A stretch of 64,000 nucleotides of DNA. Source: Diplonema papillatum (lineage: Eukaryota > Euglenozoa > Diplonemea > Diplonemida > Diplonemidae). The stretch's first letter is position 1; every line of letters starts with the position of its first letter. This document shows, piece by piece, positions 10,553 to 62,640 of the stretch. The stretch spans positions 1 to 64,000 of the forward strand of contig JAPJBO010000523.1 of assembly GCA_030068145.1 (NCBI GenBank), given 5' to 3'. The position numbers were made by a program, and so were the translations under genes. The notes under the pieces were generated by a model. The model was not told the origin of the DNA. It did no database searches and saw only the letters and a program-made list of their open reading frames with translations.

Positions 10553-10665
10553 CCTCATGGACAAAGACGGCAGGTAGTCGTCGTCGAACACATAGCTGCG
10601 ACCCCGCCGCTTCGCCGTCGTGGGAGGACGTCTGGCGGCGTGGTCGAGCCTTCCTCGCCGCGATA
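10553..10665 (-). pseudogene. Partial third copy of glycosyltransferase exon end
   Basis: It matches the exon around 11625-11740 (gacaaagacggcaggtagtc, then ggaggacgtctggcgg), with indels that break the frame. It is the outermost copy of a roughly 600-bp downstream duplication unit. Confidence 0.75.
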
Positions 10666-10831
10666 GTCAATCGAAATTGCAGATGCATGGGACCCATCAG
10701 GTCGTCGAACAATAACATTAGCGGGCTGGGACGCCCAGCAGCAGTTGATTGTCGCTTGAGAATACAATCCCTCGACATTCTGGCGCGACAGTGTCTAGGT
10801 CCAACGTGTCGGAAGGGCCGAACAGTTCACT

Positions 10832-11290
10832 TACCGTGCGAGTCCACCCTTCCGCCGGATGTTGTGCCGGACGAAAGCCAGGAAGAAGATGCCGGCCACC
10901 ATCGAGATGAAGTACGAGTCCGCGGACCGCGCCGGCGCAGCACCCGAGTATACCACACGGCTGGACGCCGGCGCTGGCCTGTCAAGGGACAAAGACGGCA
11001 GGTAGTCGTCGTCGAACAACAACGTTTTCCCCGCCGCTTCGCCGGCCACCCGCGGGAGAACGTCTGGCGGCGCGGTCGAGCCTTCCTCGCCGGCCGCAGC
11101 ATACGTCAGGTTGTCACACACGTCGCGAAGGGGGGTCTCCTCGTTGTTGATCCGGATCGTCGTGGACGCCGGCAACGGCTTGCCGTGCCACCAATCCGCT
11201 TGAGCCATTCGGCCGGCCGCAGGAGCGGGTGCTTCGGGTCGCCGTTGAAGTGGAAGAGTACCGGCGTCGAGTTTGTAGGAAGGTTTTGGC
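10832..11290 (-). pseudogene. Second copy of glycosyltransferase C-terminal coding segment
   Basis: It duplicates the last about 150 codons of the gene at 11448-12647, including the lumenal tail, the membrane segment (variant SYFISMVAGIFFLAF) and the final GGLAR. An internal stretch of about 25-30 bp is deleted relative to the parent. The consensus donor GTAAGT at the coding end is kept, as is the spacer gtcggaagggccgaacag. It could be an alternative exon or a decaying duplicate. Upstream the frame runs into non-homologous sequence. Confidence 0.7.
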
Positions 11291-11447
11291 CTCGACGATG
11301 AAGACCGCGGCCTGGCGCGATAGTCTACGGGAACTGCGGAAGCACGAGACTCATCAGGTCGTCGACCCTCGAAAGTCCATTCTTTCAGATTGCGTTCGAC
11401 GCTCTGGCAGTGTAGGTACAACGTGTCGGAGGGGCCGAACAGTTCAC

Positions 11448-12647
11448 TTACCGTGCGAGTCCACCCTTCCGCCGGATGTTGTGCCGGACAAAAGCCAGGA
11501 AGAAGATGCCTGCCACCATCAAGATGAAGTATGAGTCCGCGGACCGTGCTGGCGCAGCACCCGAGTATACCACACGGCCGGACGCCGGGCGGGCCGCCTT
11601 CGCGCGGAGGGGCGCTGGCCTGTCAAGGGACAAAGACGGCAGGTAGTCGTTGTCGAACAACAACGTTTTCCCCGCGGCCGCCCGCGGGAGAACGTCTGGC
11701 GGTGCGGTTGAGCCTTCCTCGCCGGCCGCAGCGTACGTCAGGCTGCCGCACACGTCGCGGAGGGGGGTCTCCTCGCCGTTGATCCGGATCACCGCGGACG
11801 CCGGCAACGGCTTGCCGTGCCACCACATCCGCTTGAGCCATTCGGCCGGCCGCAGGAGGGGGTGCTTCGGGTCGCCGTTGAAGTGGAAGAGCACCGGCGT
11901 CGAGTCCGTGTGGCAGTTCCGGATTTTCTTCCGCGGCCCACCAACCCCGGCGCCGCCGCGGCAGCCCTTGAAGTCGAACTGCGAGCCGAACAGATTCTGC
12001 GCTACGTGGCAGCGGTGGTCCAGCGCAATGCTTTTGTTCCACCCGTCGGAAAAGTACGCCTTGCCGAAGACCGCCTGGTCCCCACACTTGTCGCACGTAG
12101 CGGGGTCGAAGTTGCCGAGGGTCGAAATCGCGTATTCGAGGAGCGGCTTCACGTGGCTCAAGGGGCCCATCCACATTCCGCTGTTCAAAAACTTGTACTG
12201 CGAGCCGCCGACTTCCGGCCACAGCTTGCAGGTCCACTTCGGGAGAGACCGTATCCAGCAGGATCGTTCGGCGCTGAACACGATCGGGCGCTCTTTGGTT
12301 GCGACTTTGTGGTACCCAGCGAGCAGGTCGTCTGTTCCGCCTTGCCAGAGGACGTCGCCGCCGTCGAAGAAGGCGATGATTGTGTCGGGGGGCCAGTCCT
12401 TGACGTAGTCGTACAGGAGCGGGATCTTCTGCCGCAGGCGCTGCTCCTTCGCGTTCTTGAAGTCGCGCACCGTCAAGCCCGCGTCACCCCAGCCGACCAC
12501 GTGCACGTTGATCCCGTTGTGCGCGGCGCTCGCCATCATCTCGCACGACATCCGGTACGTGTTCGACAGCACCGTGAGCACCTCCAAGTCCCCCTGTGCG
12601 GCCACTACACCTGCCATCAGCAGGATGGAAAGCATCGCTCGGCACAT
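11448..12647 (-). CDS. PLOD-type glycosyltransferase with signal peptide and C-terminal membrane anchor
   Basis: 399 residues from ATG 12647; ATG 12635 is an alternative start that also leaves a signal sequence. The order is: hydrophobic signal (MLSILLMAGVVAAQG); glycosyltransferase domain with AFFDGGDVLW as the DxD-like metal site, IVFSAERSCW, NSGMWMG and CGDQAVF; a variable tail; one membrane helix (ILMVAGIFFLAFV); and a basic tail HNIRRKGG. These motifs fit the glucosyltransferase-type domain of lysyl hydroxylase/PLOD proteins, which glycosylate hydroxylysine in the secretory pathway. The hydroxylase domain is absent. The terminal TAA lies inside a perfect GTAAGT donor (CACG|GTAAGT), so the exon may splice onward. 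Partial copies lie downstream (10.55-11.29 kb) and a scrap lies upstream at 13.03 kb. Confidence 0.8.
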   Translation of the reverse strand: MCRAMLSILLMAGVVAAQGDLEVLTVLSNTYRMSCEMMASAAHNGINVHVVGWGDAGLTVRDFKNAKEQRLRQKIPLLYDYVKDWPPDTIIAFFDGGDVLWQGGTDDLLAGYHKVATKERPIVFSAERSCWIRSLPKWTCKLWPEVGGSQYKFLNSGMWMGPLSHVKPLLEYAISTLGNFDPATCDKCGDQAVFGKAYFSDGWNKSIALDHRCHVAQNLFGSQFDFKGCRGGAGVGGPRKKIRNCHTDSTPVLFHFNGDPKHPLLRPAEWLKRMWWHGKPLPASAVIRINGEETPLRDVCGSLTYAAAGEEGSTAPPDVLPRAAAGKTLLFDNDYLPSLSLDRPAPLRAKAARPASGRVVYSGAAPARSADSYFILMVAGIFFLAFVRHNIRRKGGLAR

Positions 12648-13030: not shown

Positions 13031-13290
13031 CAGCGGACTATCCTCGGTGTCGGGGGGCCAGTCCTTGACGTAGGCGTACAGGAGCGGGATCTCCGGCAGA
13101 ATTTCGCAGTGTAAAACGAGCCGAACGTCGAAATGGGCCCAAATGGACCCCAGAGGACCCGAAGTGAAGATCAAGATTGGTGTATGGTGAGACTGGCATG
13201 GTAGCCTCAGGGCCCATCCAGAAGCAGGCGACGATCGCGTGGGCAAAACAGTCGGACGGGAGCGGGATCTTCTGCCGCCGGGGGGATTCC
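13030..13290 (-). pseudogene. Fragments of glycosyltransferase exon
   Basis: ggggggccagtccttgacgt at about 13048 followed by ggcgtacaggagcgggatct copies exon positions 12387-12440. A second scrap, gagcgggatcttctgccgcc, is at about 13260. Both are too short to code and lie on the upstream side of the gene. Confidence 0.7.
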
Positions 13291-13914: not shown

Positions 13915-15445
13915 GGCTGCTCAACCGAGAACGGGATGACGTCAATGAGGTGAGGGGCCAGCCCGGAGAACAGAGCCCCCGTCGTGACCGCCTCTCGCGC
14001 GACAGCAGCGACGCGGTGGGCGCTCCCCCAGTCCGCGGGCTCGCTTATCTGCGTCGTGACGACGGACGTGGTGGAGACCAACTTGGACACGTACAATCCA
14101 AGCATTCTTTGTCATCGCGAGATCAAGATTTTCCCCCGGAATATTTGCCTTCTTTTTTAGCAAGGTCTTGGGGTGATTTGAGGTACGATGCGCAGAGCCT
14201 GTGACAGCGCTGCCACAACCCTACGAGGGCGGCGTTCGAAGGCGGACCATCAGCGTTTCGTAGGTGAGGAAGTACAGGGCCGAGAACGGGATGACGCGCA
14301 TGAGGTGCGGGGCCAGCCCGGAGAACAGAGTCCCCGTCGCGCCGCCTCTCGCGCGACAGCAGCAACGCGGCGGGCGCGGGCTTGCGTATCCGCGTCGTGA
14401 CGACGGACGTGGGGTACGCCACCTCCGACGCGCAGAGCCTGCGTTCCACGGTACAGCAGCGCTGCTAAACCCGAAAGTTTCCTTCCGGGAGATGGGGTAC
14501 AGGTTGCGAAGATTGTTCACACAGCGGGCGCTTGTCCCGACGTGCGACGATTGTTGCTGGCAGCGCTGAAACGCAGCACTCGGTATTCGACGGAAGATTG
14601 CTGCAAAAGCGCGCAGAGAGCCTCAATACCCTTCACATGGCGCTACTCAGCAGGCTGCGAAGATCGTCCTCACAGGGACGCTTGCCCCGAGGGGCGGCGA
14701 GTATAGTGTTGAAACACAACGCTGGGTGATATACGCAAAGAATGCTGCGAAGCGCGCAGAGCTGTGCTACATGGTATCATGCGTACCCTTCACGACAGCG
14801 CTTCTGCCGTATGAGGGCGGCGTTTGCAGGCGGACCATCAGCGTTTCGTAGGTGAGGAAGTACAGGGCCGAGAACGGGATAACGCGCATGAGGTGCGGGG
14901 CCAGCCCGGAGAACAGAGTCCCCGTCGCGACCGCTTCTCGCGCGACAGCAGCGACGCGGTGGGCGCCCCCCCCCAGTCGCGCCCGCGTCGTGACGACGGA
15001 CGTGGGGTACGCCACCTCCGACGCGCAGAGCCAGTGTCCCAGGCAGCACTGCTCAACCCGAAAGTTTCCTTCCGGGAGTCGGGGTACAGGTTGCGAAGAT
15101 CGTTCTCAGGGACGCTTGCCCCGAGATGTGGCGATTACAGTGTTGGAGCACAACACTGAGTGATCGACGCGAGAAAGAAAGGTTGCGCGCAGAGTTGTGC
15201 TCCATGGTACCAGCGCCTACGAGGGCGGCGTTTGCAGGCGGACCATCAGCGTTTCGTAGGTGAGGAAGTACAGGGCCGAGAACGGGATGACGTGCATGAG
15301 GTGCGGGGCCAGCCCGGAGAACAGAGTCCCCGTCGCGACCGCCTCTCGCGCGACAGCAGCGACACGGCGGGCGCCCCCCCAGTCCGCGGGCTCGCGTATC
15401 CGCGTCGTGACGACGGACGTGGGGCACGCCACCTCCGACGCGCAA
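13915..15445 (-). pseudogene. Four tandem partial copies of the carrier gene 3' end
   Basis: Copies at about 15217-15445, 14811-15030, 14220-14440 and 13925-14060 match the last about 72 codons of the SLC25 gene at 15805-16638, including SGLAPHLMRVIPFSALYFLTY. Similarity stops near gacgcgcagagcc. The spacers share gaaagtttccttccggga and ggtacaggttgcgaagat and also carry cgcgcagagcc. The copies contain point changes and small indels. The most distal copy is shortest and lacks the stop-codon region. All lie downstream of the intact gene. Confidence 0.85.
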
Positions 15446-15804
15446 AGTCAGTGTCCCAGACAGCACCGAAAGTTTCCTTCCGGGAGATGGGGTACAGGTT
15501 GCGAAGATCGTTCTCACAGGGGCGCGTGTCCCGAGGTGCGACGATTCTTGCTGGCAGAGTTGAAACGAAACACAGCACTGGGTAATCGACGCAAGATTGC
15601 TGCAAAACGCGCAGAGCCTCAATACCCTTCAGACAGCGCTTCTCAATCCGAAAAAATCTGAGAGACTGCGAAGATCGTTCTCAAAGGGACGCTTGCCCCG
15701 AGATGCGGTGATTCCAGTGTTGAACAGTGATCGACGCGAGAAAATGTTGTGAAGCGCGCAGAGCTGTTCCATGCGTACCCTTCGCGCACAGCGCTGCCAC
15801 AACC

Positions 15805-16638
15805 CTACGAGGGCGGCGTTTGCAGGCGGACCATCAGCGTTTCGTAGGTGAGGAAGTACAGGGCCGAGAACGGGATGACGCGCATGAGGTGCGGGGCCAG
15901 CCCGGAGAACAGAGTCCCCGTCGCGACCGCCTCTCGCGCGACAGCAGCGACACGGCGGGCGCCCCCCCAGTCCGCGGGCTCGCGTATCCGCGTCGTGACG
16001 ACGGACATCGGGTACGCCACCACCGACGCGCAGAGCCTCGACAGCCCCGCCGCGCCCATCACGTCGCTGACGGAGTCCGTGAACCGAACCGCTTTGTGCT
16101 GCCGCCTCTCCTGCCTGAGGACCGCGAGCCCCTTCAGCCTCTCATACGCCGCGAAGAACACGCAGAACTCGACTCCCTTGTTGGCACACGACGGCAGCAG
16201 CCCCGCGTAAAACCCGCGAACGCCCTCGGCCCGGTACGTGCTCCGCACGATCTCGGTCACGTTGCACTCCGGCAGCAGCTGGCACCTCGTCTTCAGCACC
16301 CAAACGGGCGACGTGACGACGGCTGTCACCAGACCACTAATGAACCCTCGGGCCGCCGGCTCCTCTACACCCACCTGCGAGAGTGCAGTGTAAGTGATCA
16401 TCTTCACGGAAGGGCTGATGGTGTACCCGGTGAAGTACAGGAAGGACCCAAGCTGCGCGCCGCGGAGCCCTTCCCTCGCGAGCAGGGCCTTCACGCCGCC
16501 GGCGCCGAGCAGCGCTTCCTTCCGCCGACTCTGCCGCCGCACCTTCACCACGTCGAACGGGTTCGTGAGGATCACCGGGACGATGCTGGCGCACAGCGTG
16601 ACGCCTGCGTGGGTGCCCCAGCCGACGCCATTTGACAT
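15805..16638 (-). CDS. SLC25 mitochondrial carrier, pyrimidine-nucleotide-carrier-like
   Basis: 277 residues in one exon, ATG 16638, TAG 15805; family members are usually about 300 residues. The three carrier signatures are present in degenerate form: NPFDVVKVRRQ in repeat 1, SPVWVLKTRCQ in repeat 2 and YPMSVVTTRIRE in repeat 3. Repeats 2 and 3 resemble the NPIW-K-TR and YPHEV-R-TRLRE signatures of SLC25A33/A36 and yeast Rim2. This suggests pyrimidine nucleotide transport across the mitochondrial inner membrane, but substrate is inferred only. The third signature lacks the usual acidic and basic pair. Just upstream is an SSU-rDNA-like scrap; downstream lie four copies of the gene's own 3' end. 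Confidence 0.85.
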   Translation of the reverse strand: MSNGVGWGTHAGVTLCASIVPVILTNPFDVVKVRRQSRRKEALLGAGGVKALLAREGLRGAQLGSFLYFTGYTISPSVKMITYTALSQVGVEEPAARGFISGLVTAVVTSPVWVLKTRCQLLPECNVTEIVRSTYRAEGVRGFYAGLLPSCANKGVEFCVFFAAYERLKGLAVLRQERRQHKAVRFTDSVSDVMGAAGLSRLCASVVAYPMSVVTTRIREPADWGGARRVAAVAREAVATGTLFSGLAPHLMRVIPFSALYFLTYETLMVRLQTPPS

Positions 16639-16673
16639 CAAAACTGCCCCACCCCCCGATGCCCTCTTTTCTT

Positions 16674-16756
16674 CAGCAACCCGGTGGGGAGTGCCGTGGG
16701 ATCCAAAACGACTTCCCTCGATCCTGAGACGGCATCGGTTACAGCAGCGGACTAAA
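16674..16756 (-). rRNA. Short SSU rDNA-like fragment
   Basis: ggggagtgccgtgggatcc, gacttccctcgatcctgaga and cggcatcgg match the antisense SSU-like sequence at 29125-29200. Only about 80 bp are present. It lies at the 5' edge of the carrier gene. It is a fragment, not a gene. Confidence 0.5.
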
Positions 16757-16945
16757 TAGGGGGTCGTTGTTATTTGGTGCTGGTTTTGAGGGATAAGGAA
16801 ACGTAATAAATCGTTTTGCGGTGGTCTCCGCTGGCCCTGTAGTTTGTGCTACCGCCATCTTTTACACTCGTTCTCTTCTCGTCTCACTACTGTACGTACT
16901 CTTTCACTCTTTTTCTCACTTTGGCTGGCCAAAAAAAGACTCCTG

Positions 16946-24000: not shown

Positions 24001-24299
24001 TCAGCCCTCTGAATACCAGCAGTACGCTGATGCCCAGCAAACTGGGCCACCTTGCAACCTGAGCTCTGGATCCAACCACGAGCTTTTTAACACCAGCAGC
24101 CAGCAGCACGCTATTGGTGCTGGAATTGCCGCTGGTGCTGGCACCAGACTTGTCCACCAATTGTGTGCATTGACAAATTTAGATATCCTCCATTGCATCT
24201 AGCGTACTAAGTACGTGTCGAGGCTATCTCTCCCCACTGCCTCAGCAGTGTTGCAATTGGGCAATTTGCGTACCTGCTGCCATCCTTAGATTTGGTGGG

Positions 24300-24522
24300 A
24301 AGACCTGGGCTATACTCCATACCCATCATCAAATTCCACACACGCCGACACACCCCCGCAATGGACATTTTGACTCTGGGGACAGAGGGGTCCAGGAACA
24401 TCACATGTTTCGCAAGGTGCCGACATCGCCGCACGAAACGCACTGGGTGGAGGGAGCACCACAGGGGGTCCGTCCTCCGCAGCACTTTCACGCCCCAATG
24501 TTGGCCCGAAACTGAGAAGAAG
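24300..24522 (-). other. Candidate exon of unknown gene
   Basis: On the minus strand a good acceptor (pyrimidine tract ending CTTCTTCTCAG) is followed by two open frames. One contains CETCDVPGPLCPQSQ and looks protein-like. There is no matching donor or family resemblance. It could be a downstream exon of the armadillo gene, an upstream exon of the protease, or noise. Confidence 0.2.
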
Positions 24523-29086: not shown

Positions 29087-29330
29087 GTGCACTCCCCTTG
29101 GACACACAATCTCTGATTTCTCGTTCGGGGAGTGCTGTGGGAGCCAAAATGACTTCCCTCGATCCTCAGACGGCATCGTTTCCAGCAGTGGACTACGACG
29201 GTATCTGATCATCTTGGATCCCCACGCTCTCGTTCTTGAGCAACGAAGACATTCTGGTCGAATGCTTTTCGCAAGAAACTCGTCTTTCTTTGATCTAATA
29301 ATTTCACCAGTGACGTGGAACCGTATTGGC
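28530..29330 (-). rRNA. Two tandem decayed SSU (18S-like) rDNA fragments
   Basis: On the plus strand these read as antisense SSU. Copy 2 (28948-29330) contains gagtcaaattaagccgca, cgtcaattcctttaagtttc and gacggtatctgatcatcttg, and these match the universally conserved central SSU region. Copy 1 (28530-28995) covers the same region, is more diverged, and holds an extra segment of about 175 bp (28768-28945). Both are partial and contain indels, so they are rDNA-derived repeats and not a functional gene. The conserved core is clear; the exact ends are approximate. Confidence 0.75.
28900..28933. repeat. Perfect 13-bp hairpin
   Basis: ttggcttattgga and tccaataagccaa flank an 8-base loop, inside the extra segment of SSU copy 1. 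Confidence 0.75.
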
Positions 29331-29690: not shown

Positions 29691-30163
29691 GGTCGAGTCA
29701 TGGGTCGAGTCATGGGTCGAGTCATGGGTCGAGTCATGGGTCGAGTCATGGGTCGAGTCATGGGTCGAGTCATGGGTCGAGTCATGAGTCGAGTCATGGG
29801 TCGAGCCATGGGTCGAGTCATGGGTCGAGTCATGGAGTCATGGGTCGAGTCATGGGTCGAGTCATGGGTCGAGTCATGGGTCGAGTCATGGGTCGAGTCA
29901 TGGGTCGAGTCATGGGTCGAGTCATGGGTCGAGTCATGGGTCGAGTCAAGGGTCGAGTCATGGGTCGAGCCATGGGTCGAGTCATGGGTCGAGTCATGGG
30001 TCGAGTCATGGGTCGAGTCATGGGTCGAGTCATGGGTCGAGTCATGGGTCGAGTCATGGGTCGAGTCATGGGTCGAGTCATGGGTCGAGTCATGGGTCGA
30101 GTCATGGGTCGAGTCATGGGTCGAGTCATGGGTCGAGTCATGGGTCGAGTCATGGGTCGAGTC
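29691..30163. repeat. 12-bp satellite, about 39 units
   Basis: The unit tgggtcgagtca repeats from 29691 to 30163, with a few single-base variants and one unit shortened to 8 bp at about 29834. The array is open in several frames (Met-Gly-Arg-Val on plus, Met-Thr-Arg-Pro on minus). I treat these as artefacts. Confidence 0.97.
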
Positions 30164-42099: not shown

Positions 42100-45000
42100 C
42101 GTTGGTGTTTGGCCGCAAAAAGAATAGAACGGTCAGTTTTTGGTGCCCGTTCTGCAGCTGGAAAGTACCTCACCGGTGTCAAGGGCCGATGGAAGCTCAG
42201 CCGAGGGTGGCGACTGCTTTCTGGTGAGCGTACTCAATTTCGGCGTGTCTTGTTTGGCCACAAAACAAGAACGGGCCACGGGACTTGGTGCCCTCACAGG
42301 ATGGCCGAGCGGCGCATTTCAATCTTTCTGGCAGCGGCCTGTCTATAGCTCGCGGTTAATAACAGGGAGAACAGCCGTTGACGTTACGTTTTCCGACTCC
42401 GGCAATCGGGGGACCACCGCCCCGAACACTCCGTTCCTTCCTGCTTTGCACGTAGCAACAGTAAAGATGACCGGAATCCCCTCAGGAAAGTGCAGTCCAA
42501 AGCGAGCAGCGCGCAGCAACAAAGAGGCAAGCCCTTGGAAAAGTGAATCCGGGCAAGGTGGCGGTAAATAAGTCGGTCCATCCCCACCCCCCTGGAAACT
42601 GCGTCGAATAACCGGCCTAAGAAGCGGACGCGCGAAGTAAATAATTACCCGCACGACTCATTGAAGCAGCTTATTTCACGGCACGCTGCCTCGCTGCCGC
42701 AAATGACTGACCGGTCCACTTGGCGCTCTTGGATATCCGTTGTCATCCTCGACGGACCGATGGACTGCGGTTCCACACCAGCCACAGCTGCCGCATCCGT
42801 TGCTGCGAATTCTTCACGAAAGCAGCAGACGGTCGACCGGCGCTACGTGTGTAGGCTGCTTTCCGCGGTGCCGTCAAACGGCAGAGGGCAGTCAACTGGG
42901 CGCTCTTTGGATTCTTTCCTTCGCAACCGTTTGGAACTACGGCTCGACATTCGCACGTGTGTCGTGCTGCCTTCCGCGGTGTCTCGTTGCCGTCAAAAGG
43001 CAGAGGGCAGTCAGCTGGGCGCTCTTTGGATTCCTTCCTTCGCAACCGTTCGGAACTACGGCTCGACGTTCGCACGTGCATTCTTCACAAAAGCAGAAAA
43101 GCAGAATTATCCGGTCCGTTCGTCTACGCATGTATCTGCGCAGCTGAGTTGTCGGTAAGTGCCGAACGTTATTGCCCCCATCGCCGTTCGGAGAAAGCAA
43201 AGCATCGAAACTGCACCCGTCGCTCGCTTGCCCGCACCCCCCGTTTGAAGCCTTGTGTAGCAAACGGTCGGCCGGAGCCACGTGTGTCGTGCTGCCTTCC
43301 GCGGTGCCTCGTTGCCGTCAAAAGGCAGAGGACGGTCAACCGGGCGCTCTTTGGATCCCTTCCTTTGCAACCGTTTGGAACTACGGCTCGACACCAGCCA
43401 CGGCTGCCGCACCCGTTGCTGCGCATTCTTCACGAAAGCAGCTGACAGCTTACGACGAGCCATGTGTGTAGAGTCTTGCCTTCCGTAGCTCCTCGTTGTG
43501 GGGTTGTACAACAACTCTGGAGTTCACTGTCAGAAACAATCGGAACCTACTGTTTCGCGAATGCAAGATCGGGCCCGTTTAGGCCTCTTCGCCTAGCCTC
43601 ATGGTGAGAAAGCGCCTTTTAGAGCACGTCTGTCGGCGTCGGACACCAGAAAGGCCAGCTTTTGGAACTCATTTAGCCGTATGTGCGCTACAAGGAGGAC
43701 GACAGGTCGAGGTAGTACGCTCGATACCCCCTTCCAGGACGTACCCTGGTGCCAGTTGTGTCCAGGAATGGGTATGTTCAACACCCGCACACGCCTGCCC
43801 TGGTCGCATCTGCACCGTGCTTCGGTCCTTTCAGTCACAGACGCAGCACAGACCATCAACAGCGTAGAACCAGAGTGCCTGCGGACAGGGCAGCGGTGCG
43901 AGTCTGGTTTGTCAGGCTGCTGTTCGCAGCTCGTCGGCAATCGTCCGTCCCCAACTCAAATGAGCACAGATTGGTGTCTGCAGATCATTTCTTTGCTTCG
44001 AAACACGTATGTGCTTGGCCAGCCACAAGAACAGGTCAGTTTTGGTACCCCGCAGGTGTGTGGTAGTGCTCCAGTCGCTGGGAAAGGTCCTCACCGATGC
44101 CAAGGGCCCGGAAGCTCAAATCAGCTGAGGTCCCCAGCTCAAGGACAGACTGGTGTCTGCAGATCTTTTCGTCGTTTCAAAACACGTTAGTGTTTGGCCA
44201 CAAAAGAATAGAACGGCCAGTTTTTGGTGCCCGTTATGCAGCTGGAAAGTGCCTCACCGGTGTCAAGGGCCGATGGAAGCTCAGCTGAGGGCGGCGACTG
44301 CTTCCTGGTGAGCGTACTCAATTTCGGCGTGTCTTGTTTGGCCACAAAAAGAATAGAACGGCCAGTTTTTGGTGCCCGATATGCAGCTGGAAAGTGCCTC
44401 ACCGGTGTCAAGGGCCGATGGAAGCTCAGCTGAGGGCGGCGACTGCTTCCTGGTGAGCGTACTCAATTTTGGCGTGTCTTGTTTGGCCACAAAACAAGAA
44501 CGGGTCACTTGGTGCCCTCACAGTCGTGTGATAGTGCTCCAGGTGTATCCGCTCGAAACGGTGCCAACCGATGCCATGGAAGCTCAGCTGAGGGCGGCGA
44601 CCGCTTCCTGGAGGGAGGCGTACTCGGGCGACTTGCCGTGGCCGTCTTCGGCCAGCTTCAGCACGGGCTGGACCTGCATGAGCGCCTGCGCCTTCGGCGC
44701 GCCTTGGTCCGGAAGCCTCGAGTGCCTCTTCGGACACCTTCGCCGCGCACTGCACGGCGCACGCAATGGCGATTTCCCGTCCCCAGCTCGAAGGTGGACA
44801 GGTTGGTGTCTTGTTTGGCCACATAACAAGAACGGGTCAATTTTGGTGACCCGTGAGGGCGGCGGCTGCTTCCTGGAGAGCGTACTCAATTTTTTTCGGC
44901 GTGTGTCTTGTTTGGCCACAAAACAAGAACCGGTCACTTGGTGCCCTCACAGTTGTGTGATAGTGCTCCAGGTGTATCCCGCTCAAAAAGGTGCCACCGA

Positions 45001-46163
45001 TGCCATGGAAGCTCAGCTGAGGGCGGCGACTGCTGCCTGGAGAGTGTACTCAATTTCGGCGTGTGTCTTGTTTGGCCACAAAACTAGAACCGGTCACTTG
45101 GTGCCCTCACATAGTGCTCCAGGTGTATCCCGCTCAAAAAGGTGCCACCGATGCCATGGAAGCTCAGCTGAGGGCGGCGACCGCTTCCTGGAGGGTGGCG
45201 TACTCAGGCGACTTGCCGTGGCCGTCTTCGGCCAGCTTCAACACAGGCTGGACCTGCATGAGCGCCTGCGCCTTCGGCGCCTTGGTCCGGAAGCCTCGAG
45301 TGCCTCTTCGGACACCTTCGGCGCGCACTGCACGGCGCACGCAATGGCGATTTCCCGTCCCCAGCTCGAAGGTGGACAGGTTGGTGTCTTGTTTGGCCAC
45401 ATAACAAGAACGGGTCAATTTTGGTGACCCGTGAGGGCGGCGGCTGCTTCCTGGAGAGCGTACTCAATTTTTTTCGGCGTGTGTCTTGTTTGGCCACAAA
45501 ACAAGAACCGGTCACTTGGTGCCCTCACAGTTGTGTGATAGTGCTCCAGGTGTATCCCGCTCAAAAAGGTGCCACCGATGCCATGGAAGCTCAGCTGAGG
45601 GCGGCGGCTGCTGCCTGGAGAGCGTACTCAATTTCGGCGTGTGTCTTGTTTGGCCACAAAACTAGAACCGGTCACTTGGTGCCCTCACATAGTGCTCCAG
45701 GTGTATCCCGCTCAAAAAGGTGCCACCGATGCCATGGAAGCTCAGCTGAGGGCGGTGACCGCTTCCTGGAGGGCGGCTCAGGCGACTTGCCGTGGCCGTC
45801 TTCGGCCAGCTTCAACACAGGCTGGACCTGCATGAGCGCCTGCGCCTTCGGCGCCTTGGTCCGGAAGCCTCGAGTGCCTCTTCGGACACCTTCGGCGCGC
45901 ACTGCACGGCGCACTCAATGGCGATTTCCCGTCCCCAGCTCGAAGGTGGACAGGTTGGTGTCTTGTTTGGCCACATAACAAGAACGGGTCAATTTTGGTG
46001 ACCCGTGAGGGCGGCGGCTGCTTCCTGGAGAGCGTACTCAATTTTTTCGGCGTGTGTCTTGTTTGGCCACAAAACAAGAACGGGTCACTTGGTGCCCTCA
46101 CAGTTGTGTGATAGTGCTCCAGGTGTATCCCGCTCAAAAAGGTGCCACCGATGCCATGGAAGC
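42100..46163 (-). repeat. Array of TTC27 3'-end copies
   Basis: The last codons of TTC27 with stop and 3' flank (plus strand gaagctcagctgagggcggc) recur at about 42190, 44276, 44414, 44578, 44865, 45007, 45167, 45430, 45590, 45737 and 46003. Linkers contain tcttgtttggccacaaaa and ggtgccctcacag. Three copies (44578-44800, 45167-45370, 45737-45925) extend further into the exon, over QALMQVQPVLKLAEDGHGKS, with frameshifts. The array lies wholly downstream of the intact gene. Bases 43460-43960 also hold a diverged R1 copy (about 43740-43945). Confidence 0.85.
42700..43460 (+). repeat. Tandem repeat, about 120-180 bp, three to four units
   Basis: Units with ggcagagggcagtcaactgg or variants, gcgctctttggat and gtttggaactacggctcgac occur at about 42880, 42995 and 43325. 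Flanking parts gctgccgcatccgttgctgc and ttcttcacgaaagcag recur at 42790 and 43410. No gene is recognised. Confidence 0.75.
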
Positions 46164-49100
46164 TCAGCTGAGGGCGGCGACCGCTTCCTGGAGGGCGGCG
46201 TACTCGGGCGACTTGCCGTGGCCGTCTTCGGCCAGCTTCAACACAGGCTGGACCTGCATGAGCGCCTGCGCCTTCGGCGCCATGGTCCGGACGGTCCTCG
46301 CTGCGAGCGCCTCTTCGGACACCTTCGCCGAGCACTGCGCGGCTCGGCAGGCCGCCTCGATCGTCTGCAGCGCCGTCTTCTTGTCAACCTGCCACCCCCT
46401 CTTCGCCAGGCACCGCAGCTCCTTCAAGCGCTGGTCGAACGCCTCGAGGTCGTTGCCGGTACCCTCCAAGAAATCGCCGTACGCCCGGAACAAGCCGGCG
46501 TCGGTCGTAATCAGGGTTGTCGCCTTACCGAGCAGCTTGTGCGTCTGTTTTTAGCGTTCATTAGTGTGCAAGTTCACCCCCCGTAGTAAGCACCCCCCGA
46601 CCGGTCGATTTGCCACTCTCGTGGCCCTCTATTCCGGGCGGTGTCAGCACTCCGCGTCGCGTCAAGTACATGATGCTGGCGGTTGGGGGATCGGCGACCG
46701 CGACTCAATTAAGGTACGGTCAACAGTGTCGCCACGTGAAGGCCCCCCCATGACACCATGAAAAGGGATGCAAAAAATAGCAAAACGTGAAAAAGGGGTT
46801 ACCTCTTGTTTCAAGTTCGCGAGCGAGCGCTCCTTCGCCTTCTCGACGGCTTGCTGGTGCGCGGTGTTCACCTCCCGCTCCGCCACCTCCTCGCCCGGCA
46901 GCAGGTCGATGTCGGCACCGAAGGGCGTGATGTCAAAGATCTCGTCGTCCAACTCCTCCTGCGCGGGCTCCGGCAGCAGGTCGGCCCGGTCGTGGATGTC
47001 GACCTCCTCTTCCTTTCCGTCGAGAACGGCGAGCACCTTTTGCACGAGCAGCAGCACAATCGACTGGTCTACTTTGTAGTTGCGGCCGTTAGTGTCAAGC
47101 AACTTGTTCAGCGTCTGTGTGTTTTTAGAGTTAAAGTTCGCTTGAAATTCCGGGGGTTTAGGGTCTCCGTGGGACCGTTCATGAATGGGTTCTCTTAGAG
47201 CAAGAAAGGGCTATATGGTTACTGTCAAGCAACTTGTTCAGCGTCTGTGTTGGTAATAGAGTTATAGTTCGCTTGAGAATCTTCGATTTTAGAGTCTCCG
47301 GGTGTCCTTCGTCGAATGGGTTCTTTAAATGCTAATACGTACTGGGTGGGTTTGGGGGGCATGCATGGCTTTTTTCGTGTACACTTTACTTGTCTGCTTT
47401 CGCAAGTCAGGTTCGAAACAATTTGCGACTGACACCACAATCTCACCAGGTTAGTTTATTGTGGTACCGCGATTAGTTTGGTGTCTTGCGACCTTTGTTG
47501 GTTTGGCAATTGGCAAGGAGTTTTGGTGACGTGCTTCAGTTAGAGAAAGCGGCTCTCAGAAAGGAAAGCAAATAAGATGCCAAAATCAGTTTGCTCGCTC
47601 TCTTACCGGGTGCTCAATTCACGACTCAGCCAGTTTGCCCACTCTGCGGCTTTGTCTTCCGACTCTTGCACTCGTATCCGCTCGCAAACACTCTTCATTG
47701 CAGCTGTCTTCCGACTCTTGCACTCGTATCCGCTCGCAACACTCTTCATTGCAGCTGTCTTCCGACTCTTGCACTCGTATCCGCTCGCAACACTCTTCAT
47801 TGCAGCTGTCTTCCGACTCTTGCATTCGTATCCGCTCGCAACACTCTTCATTGCAGCTGTCTTCCGACTCTTGCACTCGTATCCGCTCGCAAACACTCTT
47901 CATTGCAGCTGTCTTCCGACTCTTGCACTCGTATCCGCTCGCAACACTCTTCATTGCAGCTGTCTTCCGACTCTTGCACTCGTATCCGCTCGCAACACTC
48001 TTCATTGCAGCTGTCTTCCGACTCTTGCACTCGTATCCGCTCGCAACACTCTTCATTGCAGCTGTCTTCCGACTCTTGCATTCGTATCCGCTCGCAACAC
48101 TCTTCATTGCAGCTGTCTTCCGACTCTTGCATTCGTATCCGCTCGCAAACACTCTTCATTGCAGCTGTCTTCCGACTCTTGCATTCGTATCCGCTCGCAA
48201 ACACTCTTCATTGCAGCTGTCTTCCGACTCTTGCACTCGTATCCGCTCGCAAACACTCTTCATTGCAGCTGTCTTCCGACTCTTGCACTCGTATCCGCTC
48301 GCAACACTCTTCATTGCAGCTGTCAACACTCTTCATTGCAGCTGTCTTCCGACTCTTGCATTCGTATCCGCTCGCAACACTCTTCATTGCAGCTGTCTTC
48401 CGACTCTTGCACTCGTATCCGCTCGCAACACTCTTCATTGCAGCTGTCTTCCGACTCTTGCACTCGTATCCGCTCGCAACACTCTTCATTGCAGCTGTCT
48501 TCCGACTCTTGCACTCGTATCCGCTCGCAACACTCTTCATTGCAGCTGTCTTCCGACTCTTGCATTCGTATCCGCTCGCAACACTCTTCATTGCAGCTGT
48601 CTTCCGACTCTTGCACTCGTATCCGCTCGCAAACACTCTTCATTGCAGCTGTCTTCCGACTCTTGCACTCGTATCCGCTCGCAACACTCTTCATTGCAGC
48701 TGTCTTCCGACTCTTGCACTCGTATCCGCTCGCAACACTCTTCATTGCAGCTGTCTTCCGACTCTTGCACTCGTATCCGCTCGCAAACACTCTTCATTGC
48801 AGCTGTCTTCCGACTCTTGCACTCGTATCCGCTCGCGAACACTCTTCATTGCAGCTGTCTTCCGACTCTTGCACTCGTATCCGCTCGCAACACTCTTCAT
48901 TGCAGCTGTCTTCCGACTCTTGCATTCGTATCCGCTCGCAACACTCTTCATTGCAGCTGTCTTCCGACTCTTGCACTCGTATCCGCTCGCAAACACTCTT
49001 CATTGCAGCTGTCTTCCGACTCTTGCATTCGTATCCGCTCGCAACACTCTTCATTGCAGCTGTCTTCCGACTCTTGCACTCGTATCCGCTCGCAAACACT

Positions 49101-52100
49101 CTTCATTGCAGCTGTCTTCCGACTCTTGCACTCGTATCCGCTCGCAAACTCTCCTCATTGCAGCTTTGTTGCACAATTATTTTCCTTCCTGGTTCCGAAA
49201 ACTGGCATCTTTTTTGCCTGTGCCAGTGCCCAGGTTGGGTCCAAAAAGACAGGCGCTTCGTTTTGTTTGTGCATGCCGGTTGATCGTTTTCCCACTTGTA
49301 TTTACCCTGTGTATATTCAGGTAAGAAATTCTGATCAACGACCAAAGCACGCTGCCTACGTCTTTTTAGCCTGCACAATACATTGAAGGGCAACCCGCAA
49401 GATTGTTAGATAATAAATCGGATTTTCAGCACTTTGGCGGTGGCCGTCGTGTTCTGCACACCGAAACCGATTTTGTAGAGAGTCGTTCGGTTCTGAGCAT
49501 TCGCACGCAGGATCATCAGCTCACAAGCAAGCAGATTGCATCGCTATAGTTTTTTTTTTTGATTTGCATTGGTATGCGCACTGAACCAAACTCCAGGAAA
49601 CAAAACGTGAAACTCTCTCAGAAAAGTGCAACTCTCTCAGGGGGGGATTTTTTCCTGTGTGGTTGCACTGGTTCGTTTGTGCTTCATCGTTCTTCAGTAC
49701 AACAGCACAACTAAGAAAAAGAGGGAGAAACGCACCTGGATGGCCGTGCGGTGTTCTCCTATTTCGACGGACACGGTGAAGAGGTTGTCGAGGATGCGCC
49801 ACTCACCCGCACCCCACTTCTTTGCCTGGAGCAGGGCGTGGTAGGCGGAGATCAGCCTGTTGAGCTGCAGGTAGCACGTGGCCAAGTTGCTCCACGACAA
49901 GCCGTCCTCCAGGTCCAGCTGCACGTTGCGCGTGTAGCACTCGGACGCCCGTTCCCACTGCTTCGTCTTCAGAGCCGCCCAGCCCATTGAGAACCAGTTC
50001 GCGCCGTACACAGGGTTCAGCGTGAGAGCTTTGTCGAAGCACTCGACGGCTTCCTCATACTTTTCGGTCTCGAGGAACAGCTCCCCGAGTCCTCTCATAG
50101 GCTGCGTCAGGAGGTGCTTCGACAGTTCCCATGACTTGTAGTAGTACTCAGGGTTGCGCGTGGCGTCGCCCAAGGAGGCCCACAGGATAGCGTCCTCCGG
50201 TGATTTCTGTTGGGTGGATTGTGTTCGGTGAACGTGATGGTGATAGTAGTTTGAACTTGCAACAATCTGTGACGATGGACTGCTCAAGTAGTGATAGTAG
50301 TAGTTTCACGCCTTCCCGTCCGTCCCGCAAGGGGTTAAAATTGATCAGGCAACAGCTTCTGGCCTCCGCACTGGTTTCGGCTGACACGTAGTGGTGTTTC
50401 ATGTAGGCCACAGCACATTTACCTCCTTTTGAGATTTCGCAACTGGCAGCCTCCCCAAGGATTTCCTACAAAGCAGGTGCTTCGTTTTGTTTGTGCGTGC
50501 CGGTTGATCGGTTTCCCACTTGTATTAACCCTGTGCCATTTTCAGGTAAGGAATTCTGATCAACCACCAAAACACGCTGCCTACGTCTTTTTAGCCTGCA
50601 CAATACGTTGAAGGGCAACCCGCAAGATTGTCCCTCGGCGTGCACGGTGTCGCATGAGGGATAGAACACACAAGTTGTTCTTTCATCAGCTTTCGTCTCC
50701 TCCGCGGGCCACTCGACCGCGGCCACGTCCTTCCACTTCACAGTGGAAAGATCAATGTCGTCACGATGAACGGCGGGCTTACTTACGTCCCTTTTTGTTT
50801 GTGCGCACTTCCTTCAAACCTGTTTTGTTCATCTAACGGGAGTGAGGATAGTACACTGCCATCGATCTGTTTTTGTTCTTGACAAACTGCATTCGTTAGA
50901 CACAAAATACGAGGGCTGCCGTGTGCTTACTTCGAAGGAGGCTAGAGGGGGAGAAACAATACAACTACAAAGTGGGTCTTTTTTGTTGAACGCTTACGCC
51001 CGCCACTAAACCCAGATTCACCGTGTGTGTTTCGTGTGGGCTGCAGCACATTTACCTCCTTTGATCTTTTGCAGCTGGCAGCCTCCTGAAGTATTTCCTA
51101 CAAAGCAGGTGCTTGTACAAAAGTAGTAAGTAGTAGTATGTGTCGTCTGCCGAAGCAGCCGGAGACAGCAGGCGCAGGGGGCAGGTCTTGCTTTACTTTT
51201 CTCTTCTTCATGGAGACCCGCCCCCGGCATCCCGACTGTCCAATCACTGTCGAGAAAGTTTGCGCCTGTTGTGATGAGGTGGTTGACCAGGCCCCCACGA
51301 AGCCTCATACACAACACGGCTACAACACGAGGATGCAGCACTGCTTAGGTGTGCACTCAGCCATCGGGCCATTGGCTGCTAAGCACCCCCCGACCGGTTG
51401 ATTTGCCACTTTTGTGGCCCTCTATTCGCCGGGCGGTGCTGTCAGCACTTGTTCCGCGTCGCATCAAGTACATGATGCTGGCGGTTGGGGGATCGGCGAC
51501 CGCGACTCAATGAAGGTGCGGTCAACAGTGTCGCCACGTGAAGGCGACACATGACACCTAATGAAAAGCTTGTACAATAATAAAATCCTCACTCCTATGC
51601 TTGTGTCTGTCACTCTCGTCCTCCGCTCCTGCTCTGCTTGCCGCGCGCCGTATAGTTGGAGTAAAAAGTGAAGCCTGCTAATCTTGCTGCTGACCACATG
51701 AAGTGGTGCCACGGGAACTCCGAAGAAAAATGAAGCAAGTGGGAAGGGAGGGAGAGGAAGCAAGCTACTTTGTTTCTCTGGACGGATTGGGAGCGGCAAA
51801 CCTGTCGTTTGGATTATTATGAGTCTTCAAAGAAACAAGTTTCTTTTCCTACAAAAAAAAAAAAAAAAAAAAAAAAAAAGAAACGAGTACCTCGAGCATT
51901 TCGCGGATGAGGGCTTCGGCCTTCGTCTTCTTGCCGAGCCGTTTGCAGCACGCGATGACCTTGCTCCAGTTGCCGAGGCTCTCGTGGATGTCGAGCGACG
52001 ACTTGTCGAGGCCGATGTCTGCGTACACGTTGGCGAGCTCGGTCTTGAGCCCGAAGGACGTGGGGTACAGCACGGTCCAGAAGTGCTTGTGCCGGTGCAG

Positions 52101-54508: not shown

Positions 54509-54544
54509 CTTGCTTGACACTTTCTTTGGATACCTACCAGCTGT

Positions 54545-56070
54545 TTCTTTTCTAGCGAAAGTCCGCTTGAGAATCAAGAATCTCGAAGCTCTCCGAGTGG
54601 CCATGGTTGAAAGGGGGTTTTAGTGCAGGAATTTGGGTCTTGCAGCAGCCGCAGCCGCCGCGGCGTCCACCCGCCCATGACGTCGCTGGAGGCGAGTATC
54701 TTCGTGACTTGCTCCTTGAACTTCTCGTTCTCTTCCATCTTCGAGCTCTTGTACCACATGTCCAAGATTTGCACCAGGGTCTCTTTGTGCATCGGCTCGA
54801 CGTGCCTGCATGTTGAAGAGTAGAGTTCCAGTTTCATGAAACCGGTATTCTTGTTTTCACATTTCTGTTCTCAGGCCAGCCATTTCTTTTTTAGCGAAAG
54901 TCCGCTTGAGAATCAAGAATCTCGAAGCTCTCCGAGTGGCCATGGGTTGAAAGGGGGTTTTAGTGCAGGAATTAGGGTCTTGCAGCAGCCGCAGCCGCCG
55001 CGGCATCCACCCGCCCATGATGTCGCTGGAGGCGAGCATCTTCGTGACTTTCTCCTTGAACTTCTCGTTCTCTTCTATCTTCGAGCTCTTGTACCACATG
55101 TCCAAGATTTGCACCAGGGTACGTACCTGCATGTTGAAGAAGTTTTATGAAACCTCAGGCCAGCCATTTCTTTTTCAGCGAAAGTCCGCTTGAGAATCAA
55201 GAATCTCGAAGTCTCCGAGTGGCCATGGTTGAAAGGGGGCTTTAGTGCAGGAATTTGGGTCTTGCAGCAGCCGCAGCCGCCGCGGCGTCCGGGTGCGGGC
55301 CCGCCCATGACGTCGCTGGAGGCGAGTATCTTCGTGACTTGCTCCTTGAACTTCTCGCTCTCTTCCATCTTCGAGCTCTTGTACCACATGTCCAAGATTT
55401 GCACCAGGGTCTCTTTGTGCATCGGCTCGACGTACCATGTTGAGGAGTAGAGTTCGAGTTTTATGAAACCTCAGGCGATCAAGAATCTCGAAGTCTCCGA
55501 GTGGACATGGTTGAAAGGGGGTTTGAGTGCAGGAATTTTGGTCTTGCCGCAGCCGCCGCGGCGTCCGCTGGTGCGGGCCCGCCCATGACGTCGCTGGAGG
55601 CGAGTATCTTCGTGACTTGCTCCTTGAACTTCTCGTTCTCTTCCATCTTCGAGCTCTTGTACCACATGTCCAAGATTTGCACCAGGGTCTCTTTGTGCAT
55701 CGGCTCGACGTGCCTGCATGTTGAAGAGTAGAGTTCCAGTTTTATGAAACCGGTATTCTTGTTTTCACATTTCTGTTCTCAGGCCAGCCATTTCTTTTTT
55801 AGCGAAAGTCCGCTTGAGAATCAAGAATCTCGAAGTCTCCGAGTGGCCATGGTTGAAAGGGGGTTTTAGTGCAGGTCTTGCAGCAGCCGCGGCGTCGCCC
55901 GGCGCGGGCGCCCATGACGTCGCTGGAGGCGAGCATCTTCGCGACTTGCTCCTTGAATTTCTCGTTCTCTTCCATCTTCGAGCTCTTGTACCACATGCCC
56001 AAAATCTGCAGCAGGGTCGCATTGTGCATCGGGTCGACGTACCTACGTTTGTTAGAGTTCGAGTCATATG
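54545..56070 (-). CDS. Five tandem copies of a short terminal exon, alternating with R2 variants
   Basis: Copies, in transcription order: 56040-55870, 55720-55510, 55440-55230, 55130-54950 and 54810-54610. Each has an AG acceptor (CATGCAG or ACGTAG), encodes TLVQILDMWYKSSKMEENEK then FKEQVTKILASSDVMG or variants, and runs into an R2 variant (tccgcttgagaatcaagaat). The frame is open in all five. Phase 2 entry fits the donor of the coiled-coil exon at 61652, so this may be the last exon of that gene. Copies 1 and 4 are identical in the core; the 56-kb copy is most diverged. I do not recognise the protein. TTC27 starts 40 bp beyond the last copy's R2. Confidence 0.6.
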
Positions 56071-57039
56071 AAGCGGTATTTTTCTGTCATTTTCACATTT
56101 CTGTTCTTAGCGCGCTTCCGTCGTGGTGCAACCCGCGGCGGTTGCAACTGGTGCTGGTAGCTTGTGACAAGCTCGTGATCAGATCCGGTATCGGAGTCCC
56201 CACGGGTACTGAATCCCGAGCGACATCAATATCTTCTTCTCACTTCCAAAGTCTGGTTCTTCGCTTTCCAGTACAGGTGAATCTGGGTTCAGTGGCGGGC
56301 GTAAGCGTTCAACAAAAAAGACCCACTCCACGCTCACGTAGGTGTGCTAGTCTTCCTCACGTCAAGTCACACCCACCCCCATCCTTGCCGCAAGGTCAAG
56401 CAGGTTCAAGCAGAAAATGATGAAGCACGGCGTCAGAAGAGTCTGTGGGCCAGAACGAGGGGGACGAGCATGTCGGTTTTCGTTTTTTGTTCTTAGGAAC
56501 GCAGTCGCAGTGAAGGGACACTTTCGGAGCATTGGCTGCACGCGGAGACAGCTAAACGAACCCAAATTTAGTATTGTGTGCAGTTGCTATTTGATAGGTT
56601 TAACACGATACGCAGACAACAGGTCTCTTTTGAATGAAGACAAACATAGCTCATCCAACATAGTAGACCAGTTGAAGTTGATCATCCGTTGGTTCGTTTA
56701 ACAATGCAATCCCCCAACTCCGGAAATGCACTTCGTCTATTCTGGTAGTCGCTCAGAGGCAGGCAGCGCGGGTTGCACAATGCCAATGAGCGGCAAATGG
56801 AACGTAGTTGTTGAGAGAGAGGCAGATTACGGCAAGAAGTGTCTGTGGGCCAGTACGGTGGAGGGTGGGGTGGGAACGCGTCTGTTTTCCTTCTTTGGGA
56901 ACGTGTCAGCTAGACTTTGGCGGACAGTGTCCGGCATGGGGAGTGGGGGGCTCTCGGGCCTTATTTTGTATGGTTTGCCATGCCGCCATATGTTGATAAA
57001 AAGAAGGAGGGGGGGGGGGCGACAATGTAGGCAAAAAAA
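56071..57039. other. Non-coding stretch
   Basis: gtctgtgggccagaacgagg near 56440 and gtctgtgggccagtacggtg near 56838 suggest a weak direct repeat. No exon is supported. Confidence 0.4.
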
Positions 57040-59490: not shown

Positions 59491-59504
59491 TCTCGCGGGC
59501 TAGG

Positions 59505-60701: not shown

Positions 60702-61160
60702 CGCAAGGTTCTACCGTCTGCGCCGAGACCCCCTTCAGCTTTACGCAGCGTGTTCGCCGCGACACTTGGACGAGGAAGCTGCTGTGTCACCATCACACAC
60801 TGAAGGCAGAATACGCAGTACGCCGGCCACCGCAGGAACACACACGGAACTGCAAATACGCAAGGTTCTACCGTCTTGCGTCGAGACCCATTTGAGTGTC
60901 CTTCAACTTCTCACGCAGTGTGTGCAGCTCGAGCTGCATGGCGCGGTTTTCGGCACGGAGCCGCTCGGTTTCGTCGGCGTCGACCTCGCGGCAGATCTGC
61001 CCGAAGAGCCCCTGCAGCTCGGCGTCCCCGACGGTCGCCACCACCTCCCCGAACACGTGCCGCGCGTTGCGGATGCGGCCCCGCTGCTCGTCGCGCAGCG
61101 CCCGCACCGAGACCACTTGGGCGAGGAAGTGCTAGAGCCGTCATCCGCACACTGAAGGCG
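60702..61160 (-). pseudogene. Downstream partial copies of the coiled-coil exon end
   Basis: 60872-61140 copies the last about 80 codons of the exon at 61652-62285 almost exactly, including the donor (ACG|GTAGAA). 60702-60815 is a more decayed copy (ctaccgtctgcgccgagacc). Scraps of the same end appear at about 61250-61330 and 61540-61575. Confidence 0.8.
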
Positions 61161-61651
61161 GGACACGCATTGCGCCGGCCTGCGATTGTATGCGAAAAAG
61201 GCGCCAGAATATTGCGTTCGCCCTTCATGCGGCGTTTCCGGCGACTGTCAACCCAACCGTTTTGGGTCGAGACCCTCATGGGTGTCCTGCTGAAAGTCCA
61301 GACAGAACTGCCTCTCATGCATGACATGACTGATGCTAGCACCAAGTCTTCTTCGGGTTGATCGTCGGAATCCGAGGCACTGATGCCCCGCCTCCTCCGG
61401 AGGGTATGTGGTCCTCAAAATACGTTCATTTTCTTGCTGACTTGAAACTGTCGCCTGCACTGGGGGCGCTCTGCTTGCAGATGATGTCGGCAAACGCTCG
61501 GTCCAGCTTCAGCATTTCGCACAGCATGTTCAACGCAACACTGCGATGAGGAAAATGCTCAAGCCACCATCACACACTGAGGCAGGATACGGCCAACGCT
61601 GGGGTGTACAGGCATGTTCGCTACGTAACTACCAAAGATGCAAGGTCCTAC

Positions 61652-62285
61652 CGTCTTGCGTCGAGACCCAGCTGAGTGTCCTTCAACTTCTCACGCAGTG
61701 TGTGCAGCTCGAGCTGCATGGCGCGGTTTTCGGCACGGAGCCGCTCGGTTTCGTCGGCGTCGACCTCGCGGCAGAGCTGCCCGAAGAGCCCCTGCAGCTC
61801 GGCGTCCCCGACGGTCGCCACCACCTCCCCGAACACGTGCCGCGCGTTGCGGATGCGGCCCCGCTGCTCGTCGCGCAGCGCCCGCACCGCCGCCGCCTGG
61901 GCGAGGAAGTGCTTGAGCCACGCCTTCAAGCAGCGCCTGACAGACTCGACGTCACCGCCGGCGAGGATCCGCTGCAGCTCCGCCTGCGGCGGCACGTCCG
62001 CCCGCCAGCAGTCCAGCTCGTCGCACATCCTCCGCAGCCGACCGCTGTGCGCGGCGTGGCTGTCGGCGATCTCCGCCGACGCGCCTTCCGCGCCGCGCGG
62101 GTCGAAGACGCCGTAGGCCCGGCCTTCTTCTTGCCGCGCCCGCGGGGAAGGGGGACGCTCCGTCGACGCGCTGCTGCAGGTTTCGCGGAAGTAGTGCGGG
62201 TCGGAGGCTTGGTTTCTGCCGGGTTGCGAACCCTCGCTGCCCGTCAGCCCGTGGCTTTCCGGCGAAAGTTCCGCGTATCGTATTC
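61652..62285 (-). CDS. Coiled-coil protein exon
   Basis: From the CGACAG acceptor at 62286 to the GTAGGA donor at 61651, about 211 codons, phase 2 at the end. The N-terminal part is polar. The middle contains DELDCWRADVPPQAELQRIL. The C-terminal third is a strong coiled coil (ETERLRAENRAMQLELHTLR). The zinc-finger exon at 63979 lies upstream, and the terminal-exon array at 54.6-56.1 kb lies downstream with compatible phase. One gene of the form zinc finger, coiled coil, short tail is plausible but not shown. No family recognised. Confidence 0.65.
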
Positions 62286-62464
62286 CTGTCGTGGGGTTTG
62301 TACTTGTGATACGTCCACTCAAGGAGATGTCGGAGGATTCTTCTGTACAGTCACACCGAAAGGCCATATATTCGGAAACGGTAGGCACTGGACCTACCAG
62401 TGTCAAGCTGAACACAGGGCACTCCTTTTCACGGAGCTAGCGCGGGCTATTAGTGCTTTGTTAA

Positions 62465-62640
62465 GCACTCGGTACCGCATCCTCCGCAGCCGACCGCTGT
62501 GCGCGGCGTGGCTGTCGGCGATCTCCGCCGACGCGCCTTCCACGCCGCGCGGGTCGAAGACGCCGTAGGCCCGGCCTTGCTGCAGGTTTCGCGGAAGTAG
62601 TGCGGGTCGGAGGCTAGGTTTCTGCCGGGTTGCCGAAATC
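62465..62640 (-). pseudogene. Upstream partial, frameshifted copy of the coiled-coil exon
   Basis: It matches 62020-62235 (ggctgtcggcgatctccgcc) with an internal deletion of about 45 bp that breaks the frame. Unlike most duplicated ends here, it lies upstream of the parent. Confidence 0.8.

Follow-up and report, generated by a model that had tools for sequence, protein, structure and literature searches.

The closest structures described so far come from the very genome treated here. From Diplonema (Paradiplonema) papillatum, a marine unicellular diplonemid, repeat-bounded genes have been reported (Valach et al., 2023, BMC Biol 21:99, PMC10161547), in which a terminal part of a gene reappears next to it as degenerate neighbouring copies, including 3' ends of single-exon genes copied within the 3'-untranslated region (3'-UTR). 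Dozens of cases were collected by hand, many of them at 5' ends; sections 7 and 8 of that paper contain no counts by side. Support by PacBio reads is shown at one 5' array, and the median 3'-UTR of the organism is given as about 800 base pairs. The present analysis concerns a window of 64 kilobases (kb), i.e., positions 1 to 64,000 of contig JAPJBO010000523.1 (assembly GCA_030068145.1), in which several genes are followed by partial copies of their own 3' ends, and a survey of one large gene family, the SLC25 mitochondrial carriers, in the genome of the same species (271.4 megabases searched, 2910 contigs). An earlier note on the window, made from the letters alone, had named no described system known to do this across neighbouring genes, a statement overtaken by the report on the same species. 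Identities between copy and parent are alike, 71-96% for copies 1-12 in the legend to Fig. 2 of Valach et al. and about 68-100% over the coding parts here. We consider it rather probable that the structures are the repeat-bounded genes of D. papillatum and that they originate from direct duplication combined with tolerance in the 3'-UTR.

Two further systems invite comparison. Partial tandem gene duplication likewise generates direct, adjacent and incomplete copies, mostly decaying, beside a parent which stays whole. It differs in extent: almost every second stop in our carrier sample is involved, whereas far fewer such cases are known from the usual genomes. Retrocopies (processed pseudogenes) are likewise 3'-biased, 5'-truncated fragments, yet the copies dealt with here are adjacent to the parent and on the same strand, no poly(A) is seen, and they continue into genomic flank. 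Judged by title, none of the papers listed in our literature searches besides that of Valach et al. (2023) is devoted to repeated gene ends; a 2025 paper on diplonemid introns does not treat them in the passages found by a word search. As far as the literature was searched, new elements are the counts, the prevalence of 3' copies within one large family, the finding that the copies evolve neutrally, and the reassignment of two of six window loci formerly taken for copied gene ends.

In SLC25 genes 3' copies outnumber 5' copies. Coding sequence (CDS) is copied downstream in 15 of the 33 carriers with a certain stop and upstream in 4 of the 37 with a certain start, when at least 25 nucleotides (nt) of CDS must recur within 1 kb (wide criterion). 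When both ends are certain (n = 31), ten genes possess copies on the 3' side only, none on the 5' side only and three on both; a sign test on the ten discordant carriers (10:0) gives p = 0.002. Under a narrow criterion, which demands that a direct duplication crosses the point within ±500 nt, 15/33 stops and 3/36 starts are crossed (Fisher p = 0.0007). The pattern extends across unrelated genes, as the earlier note had supposed, and beyond the window: without the window's own carrier the counts are 14/32 stops, 4/36 starts and 9:0 discordant genes. The 4/37 include an upstream copy at a gene with an uncertain stop (C56), and a downstream pair at another such gene (C854) was left uncounted. Shuffling the 33 carrier loci in blocks of 50 nt left 0/33 with repeats, and the ±1-kb regions of all 41 sampled carriers hold two inverted pairs in all.

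The side on which a copy lies is no independent observation. A direct duplication which spans the stop and leaves the parent intact must place its partial copy downstream; one which spans the start must place it upstream. The side is therefore fixed by geometry, and the datum is the excess of 3' over 5' events. In this sense the former claim that copies lie mostly downstream holds in part: the 3' side is favoured, but upstream copies exist, in the window at 13047-13092 and 62478-62633.

The 41 distinct genes of the sample, the window's own included, were obtained from a family search of the genome (151 matches), of which the best 30 were taken as loci and further genes added. Four later carriers (L083-L086) were chosen with a preference for long open frames, and the window SLC25 gene was not chosen blind. 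Carrier matches outside the sample are those on C142, C90, C85, C369, C99, C41, C226, C1472/C1256, C190, C755 and C1192, a second gene on C1288, and unlisted matches. The open frames, which supplied starts and stops, show most sampled carriers to be single-exon; certainty was decided by domain completeness, not by duplication. Eight genes without a certain stop and four without a certain start were excluded from the respective counts. Excluded were also pairs with a period below 80 nt, pairs inside such satellites, and the rows of contigs C2795 and C2312, which are identical to C1110 and C1288 over the stretches compared.

Some carrier loci deserve mention in their own right. The carrier genes on C279 and C272 have partial CDS copies on both sides, upstream and downstream. 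At the C36 carrier (108300-111100) a satellite of about 1 kb with a 52-nt unit ends about 7 nt from the ATG, so that the satellite probably includes the leader of this gene. At C190:89872-105231, C755:2045-19456 and C1192:11756-20896 matches of carrier type form tandem arrays, probably whole-gene families.

In the window, repeats were mapped by self-alignment, coding segments were taken from a codon-usage scan trained on carrier genes, and families were assigned by Pfam, which supports a PLOD-type glycosyltransferase, an SLC25 carrier, a tetratricopeptide repeat (TPR) protein, an armadillo protein and a kinase. Exon boundaries combine codon-usage score and splice-site reading and are thus sequence-based, not RNA-based. 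The coding segments attributed to genes are on the minus strand; therefore, downstream means lower coordinates. Local pairs are nearly all direct, and direct repeats are present at all six loci named in the earlier note (E about 1e-18 to 0). Four of them, the glycosyltransferase, the SLC25 carrier, a TTC27-like last exon and a coiled-coil exon, stand as gene-end copies; two, discussed below, do not. Of five window gene ends examined, four have downstream copies. No copies were found at the fifth, with its stop at 63251, upstream of which only about 750 nt of window remain. In the tighter ±500-nt test 3/5 stops and 1/5 starts (glycosyltransferase) are crossed; the coiled-coil copy starts 512 nt past its stop and hence is uncounted.

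All features of these four loci are on the minus strand. The glycosyltransferase parent is a single open frame and a codon-usage segment at 11448-12647 (stop 11448-11450; PF25342 GT_PLOD, E=3.2e-25). A partial copy of its 3' end and 3' flank follows at 10793-11272, 88% identical to 11410-11905, and a second, shorter one at 10559-10660; 46 nt of internal CDS (12382-12427) recur upstream of the gene at 13047-13092. The SLC25 parent is likewise a single open frame, 15805-16848 (stop 15805-15807; PF00153 in three stretches, E=1.1e-33). Its copy A (15092-15447) covers roughly the 75 final codons together with 3' flank; copies B, C and D are situated at 14807-15136, 14204-14552 and 13925-14071. Over the CDS copy A is nearer to the parent than copy B.

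The third gene is a TPR gene which we take to be TTC27-like; its exon at 49697-50197 holds TPR repeats according to Pfam. The last exon, delimited by codon usage and splice-site reading, extends over 46164-46550, with the stop at 46164 and an acceptor AG just above 46550. Partial copies of this exon and its flank (parent 46006-46343 for the first) are located at 45596-45910 (90%), 45018-45336 (90.5%) and 44431-44758 (91.5%), and a more distant copy of flank sequence at 42075-42299. The copies start inside the exon and are devoid of its splice acceptor. The coiled-coil exon at 61651-62277 (stop 61651) is recognized by codon usage, and no Pfam family matched it. Its 3' end and flank are copied downstream at 60733-61139 (87%), and a part of the exon (62026-62227) on the upstream side at 62478-62633 (76%). 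In the SLC25 and coiled-coil pairs the ratio of nonsynonymous to synonymous divergence (dN/dS) is about 0.5 to 0.8 in this small sample.

The two remaining loci are not local gene ends. The first, at 54537-56110 on the minus strand, comprises five repeated units which hold a coding-like stretch; self-alignment and contig comparison relate this stretch to an exon of contig C346. Its units are 78-91% alike to units on C346 (28900-31300), where the longest open version of the coding-like stretch, a 414-aa frame, is located and where a partial copy is also present upstream of this frame. In the window the array adjoins the TTC27-like gene upstream, and its unit extends into the leader of that gene. 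A comparison of the two contigs suggests that part of the exon array of another gene was transferred to a place upstream of the TTC27-like gene and amplified there. Within the array dN/dS scatters from 0.3 to 3.7 with few changes. A CID domain, considered for the peptide of this array, is unsupported by Pfam or PDB. The second, at 39959-40795, is a non-coding array with a period of about 162 nt, found by repeat scan; the codon-usage scan detected neither a coding segment nor a gene end in it. It contains a dispersed element of about 59 nt, for which a genome search lists 40 matches elsewhere, of 44 in all (40/50 candidates scored).

Other repeats and fragments populate the window. Long and nearly perfect satellites occupy 6654-7856 (period 22 nt), 29691-30163 (12 nt), 32434-34524 (9 nt) and 47653-49165 (51 nt), and the gene at 63.3-64.0 kb has a 78-nt tandem duplication in an open reading frame, at 63530-63692. 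Pieces of the ribosomal RNA genes of the large and the small subunit (SSU) are scattered in non-coding DNA on the minus strand at 6324-6530, 29102-29231 and 24111-24385, the last of which scores best against the microsporidian SSU model. About 3600 scattered 28S pieces have been reported from this genome (Valach et al., 2023, PMC10161547). The genome yields no match to the light-harvesting family PF00504, which was recovered from the Synechococcus control, and this agrees with a diplonemid rather than a cryptophyte or another alga; PF02972 gave no match in the genome and none in the controls.

The copies are under no coding constraint and are decaying. In 38 alignments of carrier copies with their parents, covering 5139 nt of CDS, the differences by codon position number 93, 81 and 148. 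Frameshifting indels prevail over in-frame ones by 41 to 9, and seven premature stops were encountered. Copy and parent diverge by 0.052 per site in the CDS part and by 0.093 in the flank part, as expected if the copy drifts and only the CDS of the parent is held. The slower divergence of the CDS part also implies that a duplication which contains CDS stays visible about 1.8 times longer.

In most carrier genes the first downstream copy starts 4 to 358 nt past the stop, and its 5' cut corresponds to a point some 50 to 700 nt ahead of the stop. Exceptions are C462, where the array starts in the flank, and C109, where one copy itself covers the stop. At C731, C482 and C935 the units follow each other head to tail without a spacer or nearly so. 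No copied stretch was found to contain an intron. Duplication of whole genes with subsequent decay was considered and rejected: where the start is certain, the downstream copies lack the first part of the gene and begin no earlier in the CDS than nt 369 (C1302); at C109, whose start is uncertain, a downstream copy reaches nt 99 of the open frame. A mobile repeat as the cause was rejected as well. Unit sizes differ, as the earlier note had observed, and the unit sequences vary from gene to gene.

How exceptional is the stop? Under the narrow criterion the fraction of carriers crossed is 0 to 0.09 in mid-CDS and 0.45 at the stop; downstream it amounts to 0.41 at +200, 0.24 at +500, 0.13 (3/23) at +600 and 0.17 (3/18) at +900. 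The flank upstream of the start yields 0 to 0.16, with 2/27 at -500. In the window the wide criterion was applied to points in non-coding DNA further than 1.5 kb from each of the five stops, of which 53/155 are crossed, or 47/141 without the array at 53.5-57.2 kb. By the narrow criterion 45/204 points are crossed in non-coding DNA further than 1.2 kb from any listed start or stop; for all non-coding points the count is 87/279 and for CDS points 9/57. In all these window controls adjacent points depend on each other, and the crossing pairs include dispersed repeats. The background, as first estimated from carrier flanks, was too low and was raised by these point tests, which weakens the case for a targeting of 3' ends. 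The earlier note had named copies equally frequent elsewhere as evidence against itself. In non-coding DNA they are indeed frequent, whereas at 5' ends and within the CDS of carriers they are rarer.

These observations are accommodated by a simple scheme. Stretches of roughly 85-750 nt would often be duplicated in direct orientation beside themselves. A duplication which extends from the last part of a gene into the long 3'-UTR would leave the gene whole and deposit a 5'-truncated copy of its end in the 3'-UTR. Repeated events, together with duplication of the array itself, would generate serial copies, whose decay free of coding constraint is evident from the alignments. Duplications within the CDS or across the start and the spliced-leader acceptor are presumably purged, while the 3'-UTR may tolerate them. 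Most likely, this difference between purging at start and CDS and tolerance in the 3'-UTR accounts for the excess of 3' over 5' copies. The molecular step may be slippage, backward template switching or unequal sister exchange, to which the orientation and the head-to-tail units point.

Several observations do not sit easily with this scheme and weigh against it. Some copies possess sharp ends and spacers (of 42 nt at C673), unlike plain tandem duplications. Internal exon boundaries of the window, of which 11 were tested, are in no case crossed. The peak at the stop (0.45) and the fall by +600 and +900 are more focused than a flat background. Compared with the raw window background of 0.22 the stop excess is significant (p = 0.002); compared with the far downstream flank (about 0.28 after correction for detectability) it is marginal (p = 0.024). 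The emphasis of Valach et al. (2023) is on 5' arrays, while the carriers have mostly 3' copies. Finally, the 3' excess is shown for carriers only: other families display no clear excess, although these were tallied by match coordinates alone and the counts are thin. Among cyclophilins (81 matches) C-terminal partials are found downstream at C221, C1430 and C301 and N-terminal partials upstream at C304 and C1278; among Ras proteins (118 matches) there is a partial downstream at C738 and one upstream at C292. In the UQ_con family one downstream case (L054) was noted among 8 loci whose stop was judged certain by eye, of 30 loci, and a degenerate copy precedes the C36 gene by about 3.5 kb. For adh_short no partial copies were seen in 19/101 candidates scored. 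As an aside, seven Ras-type matches at even distances of about 1.3 kb, plus one partial, constitute a tandem gene array at C1847:26-9309.

The most serious competitor is a targeted process, which we regard as improbable though worth retaining. In a polycistronic genome R-loops would form between genes, where polyadenylation and trans-splicing take place, and a replication fork stalled or broken there would re-prime upstream in the coding end and so produce serial direct copies. The crossing peak at the stop, the start of copies close behind it and the truncation of their 5' sides would all agree with this. So would the situation at C97, where the copy closer in sequence to the parent lies outside an older one; at the window SLC25 gene, however, it is the adjacent copy A, and not copy B, which is nearer to the parent. 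For the euglenozoan Trypanosoma brucei, R-loops are reported as most abundant between genes, at polyadenylation sites (PMC6294496). Against targeting, the same events are frequent elsewhere, as the window points demonstrate, and the excess over a background corrected for detectability is marginal; against the window background multiplied by 1.8 (0.40) it is not significant (p = 0.32). Somewhat more doubtful still is the wider proposition that the zone of messenger RNA (mRNA) processing behind the CDS is a mutation hotspot, where stalled replication or repair re-copies the coding end and thereby lengthens 3'-UTRs thought to be used in regulation. Background duplication with selection against start-spanning events nearly suffices to explain the data. 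Tolerance is therefore favoured and targeting kept as the alternative.

An origin from RNA is quite unlikely. The earlier note had considered RNA-templated repair, and 5'-truncated complementary DNA of mRNA 3' ends recombined beside its own gene would fit the 3' bias, the 5' truncation and the fact that most sampled parents are intronless. However, neither poly(A) nor another A-tract was observed at the junctions of the 14 carrier loci examined, the copies continue into ordinary flank, and exact head-to-tail units exist at some loci. Retention by selection as alternative C-termini or last exons, also suggested earlier, has very little probability. It is true that SLC25 copy A and the coiled-coil copy are still open and that 16 of the 38 carrier alignments are free of frameshifts and premature stops, many of these being short or young; but frameshifts predominate overall, the TTC27-like copies have no acceptor, and most sampled carriers are single-exon. 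An assembly artefact can practically be dismissed: the identical contig pairs C1110/C2795 and C1288/C2312 betray some redundancy, yet the divergence of most copies from their parents is 1 to 32% and includes indels, whereas the frames of the parents remain uninterrupted, and long reads across one array are reported by the authors of the genome paper (PMC10161547).

Repeated gene ends have consequences for work with these organisms. If nearly half of the single-exon carriers bear copies of their own ends, then annotation of diplonemid genomes, the mapping of RNA sequencing reads and the counting of paralogues are affected. The asymmetry between 3' and 5' ends offers a simple genome-wide test which sets a mutational hotspot at RNA-processing sites against plain tolerance. 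On the same condition, that nearly half of the single-exon carriers bear such copies, the origin of the unusually long 3'-UTRs becomes testable; repeated duplication of their own coding ends may be what lengthens them.

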